From Lacibacter luteus (GTDB taxonomy: Bacteria > Bacteroidota > Bacteroidia > Chitinophagales > Chitinophagaceae), in the NCBI RefSeq assembly GCF_004118265.1, contig NZ_SDHW01000006.1, forward strand, positions 248,001 through 312,000: DNA of 64,000 nucleotides, written 5' to 3'. This document shows positions 1,195 to 15,032 of the stretch, piece after piece. The translations under genes and the position numbers were made by a program. The number at the start of each line of letters is the position of its first letter. Within the stretch, counting starts at the first letter, position 1. The notes below the pieces were generated by a model. It worked only from the letters and a program-made list of their open reading frames with translations. It had not been told where the DNA came from and searched no databases.

Positions 1195-4100
1195 TTACAA
1201 TCCTTTCAATGTTTGCAGCCTGTGCCACTTCCCTTCTTTCATTTCTTCTGCTGTTTCCAGGAAACGTGCAGCCAATGCAGGATCTTTTGCTTTAATCACA
1301 TTGAAACGGTTTTCATGATACATGAATTCACTCAATGGTAACGATGGGTCTTTTGAATCAACCACAAAGCGTTCTCCTTTTGGTTTCATCGGGTTGTAGT
1401 GGAACAATGGCCAGTAACCACTCTTCACTGCAAAATCCTGTTCTTCTGCACCATGTGCCATATCAATACCATGCGCAATACAATGACTGTAAGCAATGAT
1501 CAACGATGGACCGGGATATGCTTCTGCTTCAAGAATGGTACGCACAGTATGCATATCATTTCCACCCATTGCTATCTGTGCAACATAAGCGGTGCCATGT
1601 GCAATGGCCTGCATCGCAAGGTCTTTCTTACCTGCTGTTTTACCATTTACACTAAACTTGGCACTTGCACCAATAGGTGTTGCTTTTGATTTTTGTCCAC
1701 CGGTGTTGCTGTACACTTCGGTATCGAGCACCATGATGTTTACATTTTCACCTGTGCTGAGGATATGATCCAAACCACCGTAACCAATATCATAAGCCCA
1801 ACCATCACCACCAATGATCCAGATCGATTTTTCTTCTAAGAAATCTGCAAGATGGAAGAGATTCAATGCAGCCATTGAACGTTCACGACTTAAACGAAGC
1901 TTCAGTTCTTTCACCAGTTCATGTTTCTCTGCTAACTCAGCTTCAGTGGTTCCGTTATTATTGATGATCTTGTCAACCAACTCTTCACCAACCATCGGAC
2001 GTAATTCATCGAGCAACTGCAAAGCCATTTCTTTTTTCTTATTGCTGGCCATACTTAAGCCCAATCCAAACTCTGCATTGTCTTCAAACAAACTGTTTGC
2101 CCATGCCGGCCCTACACCTTCTTTGTTTTTTGTCCATGGTGTTGTTGGTAAGTTACCACCAAAGATGGATGAACAACCTGTTGCATTGGCAACGATCATG
2201 CGTTCACCAAACAATTGTGTTAAGAGTTTTAAGTAAGGTGTTTCACCGCAACCGGAACATGCACCACTGAACTCAAACAAAGGCTGGAAGAACTGTGAAC
2301 CTTTCACTGTGTTTTTGTTCACTCTTGTACGATCCACTTCAGGAATGCTTAAGAAATAATCCCAGTTCTCTTTTTCTTTTTCCTGAATATCTGTTTTATC
2401 CATCATGTTGATGGCTTTATGACCGGGATCCGTTTTGCTTGTGATGGGACAGAACTCAACGCACAATGTACAACCGGTACAATCTTCTGTTGACACCTGT
2501 AATGTGTATGCTTCTGTTTCTTTGTTCCACTCTTTACCAATTGGTGCAACATGTTTCCAGCCATCTGGCGCATCGTTCAACAATGCTTTGTCGTATACTT
2601 TCGGACGAATAGCTGCATGCGGACAAATCATAAAACATTTACCGCACTGTGTACACATGCTTGCATCCCACACCGGCACTGCATCTGCAATATTGCGTTT
2701 CTCCCATTTAGTTGTTCCGCTTGGGAATGTACCATCAACAGGAAATGCACTCACCGGTAATTCATCACCTTCGCCTGCAATAATTTTTCCTAAGACTTCT
2801 TTTACAAACGCAGGTGCTTCAGCTGGTACTGCAGCATCAATGGGTCTGTCGCCGATGGTATATTGTGCATAATCCACTTCGTACAAATTAGCAAGTGTTT
2901 TATCCACCGCATCATAGTTCTTCTGTACAACCGCTTCACCTTTTTTCCAATAGCTATCATAAATAGCTTCCTTGATTTTTGCAATCGCTTCTTCACGTGG
3001 CAACACATTACTGATGGCGAAGAAACAGGTTTGCAGAATGGTGTTGATACGGTTGCCCATGCCCGCTTCTTTTGCAACGGTGTAGGCATTGATGGCATAG
3101 AATTTTAATTTCTTATGTACGATCTCTTCCTGTATTTTCTTTGGCAGCTTGCTCCACAGTTCTTCTTTTTCATACGGCGCATTCAACAGGAATACCGCAT
3201 TCTCTTCTGCTTCTTTCAGAATATCATACTTCGTTAAATAGTTGAAGTGATGACAGGCTACAAAGTTTGCAGACTGTACCAGGTATGTTGAGTTGATCGG
3301 GTTCTCACCAAAACGTAAATGCGATACCGTTAACGATCCTGATTTTTTTGAGTCGTACACAAAATAACCCTGCACATGATCGTTGGTTTTATCGCCAATG
3401 ATCTTGATGGAGTTTTTATTGGCGCTCACTGTACCATCGGCACCCAAACCAAAGAACAAACCACGAAACTGGTGTTGTGCTTCTAGGTTAAATGTTTTAT
3501 CGTATTCTAAACTTGTATGTGTAACATCATCATCAATACCAATGGTAAAGTGATTTTTCGGATGTTCTTTTTTCAATTCACGGAACACGGCTTTCACCAT
3601 AGCAGGCGTAAACTCTTTGCTCGATAAACCGTAACGTCCGCCAATAACATGTGCATGATGATTTTCCTGTGCTTCGTTCAATGCATTCACCACATTCATG
3701 TACAATGGTTCACCAATACCGTTTGGTTCTTTACAACGGTCGAGAACGCCAATACTTACCACACTCTTCGGCAGTACTGCCATAAACGCTTCCACATCCA
3801 GCGGACGGAACAAACGCACCACGATCATACCTACATGCGCACCATTATTATTTAGATAGTCAACCGTTTCTTTTACAGTACCTGCAGCAGAACCCATGAT
3901 CACCACTACACGATCGGGATGTGCATGACCATAGTATTCGTACAATTTATATTTACGTCCTGTCAATACGCCAAACTCATTCATCACTTCCTGCACAATG
4001 GATGGCACCAATGCATGATAGGTATTTGCAGCTTCCCTGTTCTGGAAATACACATCAGGATTTTGTGCAGTACCACGAATGAATGGATTGTTGGGATTCA

Positions 4101-13196: not shown

Positions 13197-15032
13197 ATGG
13201 ATAAATTCATTGTTTCGGCACGCAAGTACAGACCCCAAACCTTCGATACGGTGGTGGGGCAAAGTCATATCACCACTACACTTAAAAATGCTATCAGCCA
13301 TAATCAATTGGCGCATGCATTTTTGTTTTGCGGTCCACGTGGTGTGGGTAAAACAACCTGTGCCCGTATTCTGGCCAAGACGATCAACTGCGAAAATATT
13401 CAACCCAATGGTGAGGCTTGCGATACCTGTGTAAGTTGCCGTACGTTTAACGAAGGCACATCACTCAACATTCATGAATTGGATGCGGCGAGTAACAACT
13501 CGGTGGATGATATCCGTTCGTTGATTGAACAGGTTCGTTTTGCACCGCAGATGGGGCAATACAAAGTGTACATCATCGATGAGGTACACATGCTCAGCTC
13601 AAGTGCCTTCAATGCATTTTTGAAAACACTGGAAGAGCCTCCATCCTATGCTATTTTCATTTTAGCAACAACAGAGAAACACAAGATCTTACCAACCATC
13701 CTCAGCCGATGCCAGATCTTCGATTTCAAACGTATTACAACCAACGATACTGTTGAACATCTGCAGGAAATTGTTACCAAAGAAGAGCTGAAAGCGGAGA
13801 AACCGGCATTACAAGTGATTGCGCAGAAGAGTGAAGGTTGTATGCGTGATGCACTCAGCATCATGGATAAGATTGTGAGCTTTACTAATGGTGAACTTAC
13901 TTATCAGAATACATTAGAGCATCTGAACATTTTAGATGCAGATTATTTTTTCAAGTTACTTGATGCCATGCAGCAGCAGGATCTTGCAACAGGTATGTTG
14001 TTGTTCGATGATATTAACCGCAAAGGTTTTGAAGGCGACATGGTATTGAATGCCATGGCCGAATTCTTCCGCAACCTGCTGGTGTGTAAAGATGAAAGGG
14101 TAGCCAGCCTGCTGGAAGTGGTTGAAAGTTTCAAAGACCGTTATATTGCTGCTGCAAAGAAAACATCAGCATCTTACATCATCAGTGCATTGAATGTATT
14201 GAACGAAGCGGAGATCGGTTACAAACAGGCACGCAACAAACGTCTGCATGTAGAGTTGGCAATCATTAAACTCACTTACCTGCAACAGGCCATCGACCTT
14301 TCTGATAAAAAAAAAGTAGTTGATAAAGCGAAAGCCGTTCAGTTCCGCTCGTTGCAGCCGGTGGAAGTAAAGGAACAAGCTGAAGGCACAAGGAACAAGG
14401 TACAGGAAACAAGCGGCGCAAGGCTGCTAGTGGAAGAACCACAGCAGAGACTGCAAGGCACAAGTTACAAGGTACAAGAGCCAATATCCCCGTCCGACCA
14501 GGTGATCCGGGCGGGCAATGCTCAAAATCCATCAATACAAAATCCACCAATACAAACTTCAACACCTAAAGCAAACACAGCTGGTTTAAAAGGTGGTTTA
14601 TCAAAGCTGCGGGAGAAGATTGCTGCCGAAAGCAACAGTGCTGCCAATCAACAAAGAGATATTGATGTGGAAGGTTTGAAAATAGCCTGGCAGGAATATA
14701 TTTTGAAACTGAAAGCAGCAGCAAAACATTCGGTGGTATCCACTTTTGAAATGATGGAATGCCGTATGAAATCGCCCATCGATTTTGAAGTGGTTGTTTC
14801 AGGTGCAATACAGGCAGGTTTTCTGAAACAGGAAAAAACTTCCTTACTGCTGCATATACAGAGTTTTTTCAAAAACCCCAATCTCAATATTCATGTTGAT
14901 CTGATAGAAGAACCGGAAGATAATACACCGGTTGAACGTCCGCTTTCAGTTAGGGAACAGTTCCAGCTAATGACAGAAAAATATCCGCTGGTAAAAGAAT
15001 TGAGAGATCGTTTAGGAATGCAGCTCGATTAA
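13197..15032 (+). CDS. dnaX: DNA polymerase III subunits gamma/tau
   Basis: The clamp-loader ATPase. 611 residues: Walker A GPRGVGKT (46-53), a zinc module with Cys65, 75, 78 and 81, Walker B IIDEVH (about 127-132) and the sensor motif ILSRCQIF. Conserved clamp-loader domains end near residue 370. A long, poorly conserved linker (about 375-470) follows, then a C-terminal part that would contact polymerase and helicase. At codons 371-373 the gene has nine A in a row, with stop codons directly behind it in the other two frames, so a short gamma form is likely. The linker contains repeat-derived sequence (14385-14515). Confidence 0.96.
   Translation: MDKFIVSARKYRPQTFDTVVGQSHITTTLKNAISHNQLAHAFLFCGPRGVGKTTCARILAKTINCENIQPNGEACDTCVSCRTFNEGTSLNIHELDAASNNSVDDIRSLIEQVRFAPQMGQYKVYIIDEVHMLSSSAFNAFLKTLEEPPSYAIFILATTEKHKILPTILSRCQIFDFKRITTNDTVEHLQEIVTKEELKAEKPALQVIAQKSEGCMRDALSIMDKIVSFTNGELTYQNTLEHLNILDADYFFKLLDAMQQQDLATGMLLFDDINRKGFEGDMVLNAMAEFFRNLLVCKDERVASLLEVVESFKDRYIAAAKKTSASYIISALNVLNEAEIGYKQARNKRLHVELAIIKLTYLQQAIDLSDKKKVVDKAKAVQFRSLQPVEVKEQAEGTRNKVQETSGARLLVEEPQQRLQGTSYKVQEPISPSDQVIRAGNAQNPSIQNPPIQTSTPKANTAGLKGGLSKLREKIAAESNSAANQQRDIDVEGLKIAWQEYILKLKAAAKHSVVSTFEMMECRMKSPIDFEVVVSGAIQAGFLKQEKTSLLLHIQSFFKNPNLNIHVDLIEEPEDNTPVERPLSVREQFQLMTEKYPLVKELRDRLGMQLD
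14307..14315 (+). promoter_or_regulatory. Putative slippage site (A9) making the gamma subunit
   Basis: Nine consecutive A cover codons 371-373 of dnaX, just after the conserved ATPase and collar domains. If one A is gained, or the ribosome shifts by -1, the next codons read AGT AGT and then TGA (14321-14323). If one A is lost, TAG follows at once (14317-14319). Both outcomes end the protein at about 373-375 residues. The same design, with A9 and transcriptional slippage, is known for dnaX of Thermus thermophilus. Confidence 0.65.
14385..14515 (+). repeat. Repeat-derived insertion in the dnaX linker
   Basis: Two direct copies of a 22-bp unit, GGCACAAGnnACAAGGTACArG (14385-14406 and 14457-14478), match at 19 of 22 positions. 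They are followed by an imperfect GC-rich hairpin (14489-14515). Related words occur outside genes near 40496 (AAGGTACAAGG) and 50785 (AAGGTACAAG). All lie in frame, coding for low-complexity text such as GTRNKVQE and GTSYKVQE. Confidence 0.6.

Follow-up and report, generated by a model that had tools for sequence, protein, structure and literature searches.

The dnaX gene of Lacibacter luteus, a member of the Chitinophagaceae (phylum Bacteroidota), encodes the gamma/tau subunit of DNA polymerase III and carries a run of nine adenosines (A9) just beyond its clamp-loader domains. The gene lies in a stretch of 64,000 nucleotides (nt) (assembly GCF_004118265.1, contig NZ_SDHW01000006.1, positions 248,001 to 312,000 of the forward strand), which was analyzed as a whole and is referred to below, with its own numbering, as the window. 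Comparison of dnaX sequences from the genus to the phylum indicates that the A9 run is very likely a site of programmed transcriptional slippage, yielding both gamma and tau as in Thermus thermophilus. Both the production of the two proteins and the assignment of the slip to RNA polymerase, as opposed to the ribosome, are inferences.

The A9 site of dnaX

The window gene is of the single-frame form. Its open reading frame (ORF) is not divided in two but continues through the run to position 15032, and the entire product (residues 1-611) is matched by the gamma/tau model NF011531 at 720.9 bits, with the C-terminal part of tau intact. Pfam recognizes the AAA+ domain, the lid and domain III. The run encodes Lys371-373 and starts four residues beyond the end of PF12169 (residue 367), in keeping with a preliminary description of this DNA that had placed it where the clamp-loader domains end. 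The positions given there for the A9 (14307, codons 371-373), the +1-frame TAG (14317) and the -1-frame TGA (14321) are read directly from the sequence and are right. Removal of one A gives AAG TAG, and addition of one gives AAA AGT AGT TGA TAA, in which the TGA (14321-14323) is followed in frame by TAA (14324-14326). The gene shows two features of a Thermus-type site, a run of at least nine A's and near stop codons in both non-zero frames.

In the proposed mechanism, RNA polymerase would slip on the nine A's while copying dnaX, generating mRNAs with 8, 9, 10 or more A's. Transcripts with 9 or 12 A's would be translated into tau of 611 or 612 amino acids, and the others would lead to TAG at once, or to TGA-TAA a few codons on, giving a gamma of about 373-375 amino acids that consists of domains I-III only. 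An mRNA one A shorter or two A's longer than the gene would lead to TAG (predicted gamma of 373 or 374 residues), whereas one with a single extra A would lead to TGA (predicted gamma of 375 residues, ending KKKSS).

Conservation of the run from genus to phylum

Retention of the run and both stops in related genomes, which the preliminary description had named as a check, was found at every level compared: within the genus, the family and the class, and in further classes of the Bacteroidota. The genus set consisted of 14 genomes, the window's included, with DnaX proteins 63-100% identical to that of the window. All 14 keep the run, as A9 in 12 and A10 in two. In the 60 codons to the left and right of the run, the amino acid is the same throughout in 37 columns (columns with at least 12 sequences; Met and Trp excluded). 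Synonymous variation is seen in 33 of these, and of the four fixed columns, three are the AAA AAA AAA of the run itself.

Outside the genus, 88 of the 137 matched genomes of the family were read. The class search matched 116, from which 86 loci (L123-L208, two repeats among them) were used, and the phylum search likewise matched 116, from which 62 (L209-L270, several repeats among them) were used. A further, named set comprised the best 80 of at least 595 matches in GTDB. In genus and family, 102 loci were read and 100 were measurable; 93 of these have a run of at least nine A's no more than 150 nt beyond domain III. One family locus, L052, is identical over the 260 bases compared to L271 of Longitalea luteola, which NCBI assigns to the Chitinophagaceae. 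In the class, such a run was found in 68 of 80 loci, after removal of four reference rows from 84. When genus, family and class were scored together over a 450-nt stretch, it was found in 161/179. The sets were pooled into 332 dnaX loci, from which 16 duplicates, six loci ending too early and two without a usable ORF (L244, and L296, a Bacteroides without the run) were dropped, leaving 308 distinct loci. A run of at least nine A's follows domain III in 252 of these (245/296 when the loci had first been pooled under stricter criteria), compared with 1/308 for the preceding 1 kb or so of the same genes, which served as control. Lengths are concentrated at A9 (89 loci) and A10 (150), with A7 in nine, A8 in one, A11 in ten, A12 in two and A13 in one. 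Even among loci with more than 55% GC, the run is still present in 17/30.

The run is absent (fewer than nine A's) from the other 56 of the 308 loci. In the named set, 21 of the 78 measured loci lack it; 20 of these are labelled Bacteroidales or its families, including gut and rumen Bacteroides, Bacteroidaceae and Prevotella, and the remaining one (L321) is labelled Bacteroidetes only. Sunxiuqinia, Proteiniphilum and a Rikenellaceae are Bacteroidales that retain it. In L290, L296, L302, L305, L310, L317, L319, L324, L325 and others, from gut and rumen Bacteroidaceae and Prevotella, there is no A-run at the junction and tau is encoded in one ORF.

Selection on the run and on the flanking stop codons

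The run could in principle be merely the start of a lysine-rich linker with AAA-biased codons, in which case slippage would be noise and nothing would be programmed. Codon bias is indeed strong. Elsewhere in the dnaX genes of the genus, AAA encodes 488 of 625 lysines (78%), so that bias alone would produce AAA AAA AAA at nearly half of all KKK sites. Synonymous resampling with each gene's own codons already expects an A9 in 35.0 of 95 single-frame genes of the family. The number seen is 89, however, and for the class 41 of 52 single-frame genes have it, against 16.6 expected. Because the synonymous expectation is not small, weight was also placed on codon phase, on the length threshold and on the stops. 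Across the 252 run-bearing loci, all three codon phases are used (109/73/70), with differing amino acids, which implies that the run is kept as nucleotides and not merely as KKK.

The stop codons tell the same story. In the 185 single-frame loci, a -1-frame stop lies within seven codons in 184 and a +1-frame stop in 160, where 103.7 and 92.6 are expected if the amino acids are held fixed; both alternative frames are closed within this distance in 159, against 47.8 expected on that basis. Measured against random positions of the same genes, both stops within seven codons were found in 111/130, as opposed to 16% at random positions. A further example comes from the 63 runs of the family whose last A closes a codon and that have GA two codons further on. 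In 59/63 the codon just before this GA ends in T, which creates the -1-frame TGA; codon usage predicts 18.2. Judged from these comparisons, both the nucleotide run and the two stops are under selection. Along with the 67 genes described below, whose zero frame does not lead into tau, this makes a mere codon-biased linker very improbable. Chance combined with codon bias was rejected on the basis of shuffles, synonymous resampling, phases, the fixed AAA columns and stop selection.

Rarity of long A-runs in the window and the genome

The dnaX run is the sole run of nine A's or T's in the window, where 100 dinucleotide shuffles give an expectation of 11.3 (standard deviation 5.3), and this, with the comparative evidence, argues that it is not there by chance. 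In the whole 5.07-Mb genome, the nine-run pattern has 89 matches, corresponding to 82 separate runs, whereas about 900 matches would be expected if the shuffle rate of the window is extrapolated. Runs of this length are thus depleted about tenfold, and dnaX is among the few genes that retain one. Of 71 runs that were placed, 27 are read in the sense direction of ORFs that span 120 or more amino acids, several of them at the extreme start or end of the ORF; 11 are T-runs within such ORFs and 33 belong to neither class. Examples inside sizeable ORFs are L364, L367, L371, L393 and L417.

Split dnaX genes

The single-frame form accounts for 185 of the 252 run-bearing loci. In the other 67, reading in the zero frame stops near the run, and the tau sequence resumes in the -1 frame (59 loci) or the +1 frame (8 loci). 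The zero-frame stop lies within seven codons of the run in 66 of them. A profile of the C-terminal part of tau, built from 60 single-frame loci, matches the second ORF in 60/67; the seven without a match are L311, truncated where its contig stops, and six loci of other classes. Some calls carry qualifications: L311 was called split from just 64 codons before the contig end, L065 (+1) is probably interrupted upstream of the run as well, L350 (+1) might reflect a one-base error, and L061, split at an A8, was counted among the 56 loci without the run.

One possibility is that in split genes the C-terminal part is a separate protein, made from its own start codon with no change of frame. An ATG, GTG or TTG is present before codon 60 after the run in 49/67 second ORFs, as this explanation requires. 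It is absent in 18/67, however, and in 10/67 no start occurs before codon 80, counted from the upstream stop of the ORF. In these start-less genes, the production of tau therefore needs a change of frame. A separate protein would also leave unexplained both the A9-A10 run at the junction and the single-frame genes, and this explanation is considered extremely improbable.

Close relatives also differ in how tau is encoded. Flavobacterium quisquiliarum (L348) has an A10 with tau in the -1 frame, and Flavobacterium sp. YO12 (L350) an A9 with tau in the +1 frame; the two are 96% identical in domains I-III and differ by one A, which could be a real indel or a sequencing error. Another pair consists of L061, which lies on a single 6.3-Mb contig and is split at its A8 junction, and the single-frame A10 gene of Chitinophaga terrae, with 90% identity in domains I-III. 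The DnaX encoded in the L226 genome shares 93% identity with its counterpart in Flavobacterium sp. YO12. Beyond the 5′ end of this dnaX, on the opposite strand, the locus carries a Flavo-1 RNA (RF01705) and an RNase P RNA, at 2651-2728 and 3195-3518.

On a gene tree of domains I-III (FastTree), the fewest changes were 32 between single-frame and split, 25 between presence and absence of the run, and 50 in phase; the 32 switches are not firm, because the tree covers a single gene and has no outgroup, and a draft assembly with one base too many or too few in a homopolymer would mimic a switch. Repeated switching of the zero-frame product between tau and gamma is what slippage would allow, since it samples every frame. 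Programmed transcriptional slippage at an A9-A10 run is probably the usual and ancestral state of dnaX in the Bacteroidota, with the zero-frame product having switched many times between tau and gamma (at least 32 changes on this one tree) and the site having been lost in gut Bacteroidaceae and Prevotella and in some GC-rich lineages.

Transcriptional slippage or ribosomal frameshifting

The main alternative is a programmed -1 ribosomal frameshift like that of E. coli dnaX, in which the ribosome would move one base back on A_AAA_AAA and stop at the TGA at 14321. Such a shift would account for the stop within seven codons in 184/185 single-frame loci and for the -1 frame required by 59/67 split genes. 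Atkins et al. 2016 (PMC5009743) also favor the ribosome, treating split dnaX as apparent ribosomal frameshifting. The run itself is longer than this mechanism needs: A7 would suffice, yet A7 and A8 are rare and A9 and A10 dominate. A -1 shift would likewise not call for the +1-frame stops, which are selected as well, nor serve the eight split genes that require +1 (including L065 and L350, with the qualifications given above).

The stimulatory signals of the E. coli element are missing from the window site. The zero-frame heptamer A_AAA_AAG is absent, the codons being AAA AAA AAA GTA, and no GGAG or GAGG occurs within the 20 bases before the run, where the E. coli control has GGAG. As the preliminary description had observed, no obvious hairpin follows: the 75 nt that come next have a folding energy of -17.7 kcal/mol (z -0.30), and where E. 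coli has its stem, the most stable 34-nt stem reaches -4.5 kcal/mol, compared with -19.1 for E. coli dnaX. The Rfam family of the DnaX frameshift element (RF00382), which matches E. coli dnaX as positive control, found no match in the window at E<=10, nor in 14 Bacteroidota loci. A search of the genus for a common fold found none. Across 251 loci, a stem of E. coli strength (-19.1 kcal/mol) was reached in none; the median was -5.0 kcal/mol, versus -4.6 at control positions. The mean z-score of the 60 nt downstream was -0.43, versus -0.31 at control positions, but the E. coli element itself scores -0.31, so this test is blind to such elements and local stem energy was used in its place.

Several observations weigh against slippage in transcription as a complete account. 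Strong stems (-10 kcal/mol or lower) occur in 12% of loci, compared with 7% at control positions, and z-scores below -2 in 11% compared with 6%. Shine-Dalgarno-like GGAG or GAGG motifs precede the run in 38/252 loci (15%), compared with 6% at control positions. These mild excesses are in the direction expected for -1 frameshifting, and some members may have ribosomal stimulators. Unpublished E. coli-like signals are mentioned for Chlorobium phaeobacteroides in the accessible part of Atkins et al. 2016 (PMC5009743). The 56/308 loci without the run indicate that it is dispensable in some lineages, and the genomic avoidance of A9 may in part stem from indel mutation of DNA.

On balance, ribosomal frameshifting as the general explanation is judged unlikely. 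Transcriptional slippage, which the preliminary description had also favored, appears the better supported because of the A9 threshold, the selection on stops in both frames, the splits in both directions, and the lack of a strong hairpin and of an RF00382 match. Antonov et al. (PMC3711429), in the portion available, inferred transcriptional slippage where both frame directions occur within one function; by the same logic, splits in both directions here point to slippage.

Features of the window gene

The positions of the elements discussed are collected in Table 1. Two repeats were observed in the linker of tau: an imperfect 30-nt direct repeat (14383-14412 and 14455-14484) and a 15-nt tandem repeat (14523-14552). 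They were sought as mobile inserts across the L. luteus genome, and no spread copies were found.

Table 1. Elements of dnaX in the window
Feature	Positions	Strand	Basis
dnaX, DNA polymerase III subunit gamma/tau, 611 amino acids	13197..15032	+	ORF; NCBIfam NF011531; Pfam
Domain III (PF12169, residues 246-367), last domain of predicted gamma	13932..14297	+	Pfam
Predicted A9 slippage site, codons 371-373 (AAA AAA AAA)	14307..14315	+	sequence; conservation
Tau-only linker and C-terminal domain, residues 374-611	14316..15029	+	sequence; tau C-terminal profile in split loci
TAG, +1 frame, reached with one A fewer or two more	14317..14319	+	sequence
TGA TAA, -1 frame, reached after gain of one A	14321..14326	+	sequence

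Implications and comparison with known systems

Gamma is described beside tau in a few model bacteria, where it arises by ribosomal frameshifting, slippage or proteolysis (PMC5009743). Conservation of a slippage site in most members of so large a phylum would point to a broad importance of the short clamp-loader subunit, and would account for the many Bacteroidota dnaX genes that appear truncated or frameshifted. The range from A7 to A13, with both frames and with losses, forms a natural series for studying when slippage of RNA polymerase is useful, and dnaX slippage is directly testable in RNA-seq data of common Flavobacterium, Pedobacter and Chitinophaga.

The preliminary description had held that such a site is not commonly described in the Bacteroidota. 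This stands for the single-frame form, which seems undescribed in the open papers searched, but split dnaX genes with poly-A were already reported by Antonov et al. 2013 (PMC3711429), whose accessible text gives 17 genes from 12 genera in a GeneTack cluster, the species named there being Chlorobi. Beyond that paper, no report on dnaX slippage in the Bacteroidota was found in the open-licence literature, and the breadth of the phenomenon, the common single-frame form and the repeated switching seem to be undescribed there. Single-frame genes would escape a GeneTack-type screen, since they contain no frame break to detect. The 67 loci with tau in another frame resemble the two-ORF genes of Antonov et al., as far as these are described in the available text, in having a poly-A run, mostly of ten, at the gamma/tau junction; the window gene and the majority of run-bearing loci differ from them in being single-frame.

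The likeness to E. coli dnaX lies in the gene itself, the predicted pair of gamma and tau, and a shift at an A-run encoding lysine. Unlike E. coli dnaX, the window gene lacks A_AAA_AAG, a Shine-Dalgarno-like sequence and a strong stem, and it has nine A's rather than six A's followed by G.

The closest counterpart is dnaX of T. thermophilus, for which transcriptional slippage was measured (Larsen et al. 2000, as cited in PMC1088944 and PMC5009743). Baranov et al. 2005 (PMC1088944) pointed out, in the part of the text available, that truncating slippage of the Thermus type is hard to judge comparatively, as it yields no new coding sequence; the stop and synonymous tests used here offer a way round this problem. 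In both genes, as far as the cited accounts describe that of Thermus, an A9 run lies within a single tau ORF with near stops in both other frames, and gamma comes from slipped mRNA, as measured in Thermus and as predicted here. The two differ in the position of the run, which in the window gene is at 61% of the length, directly after domain III.
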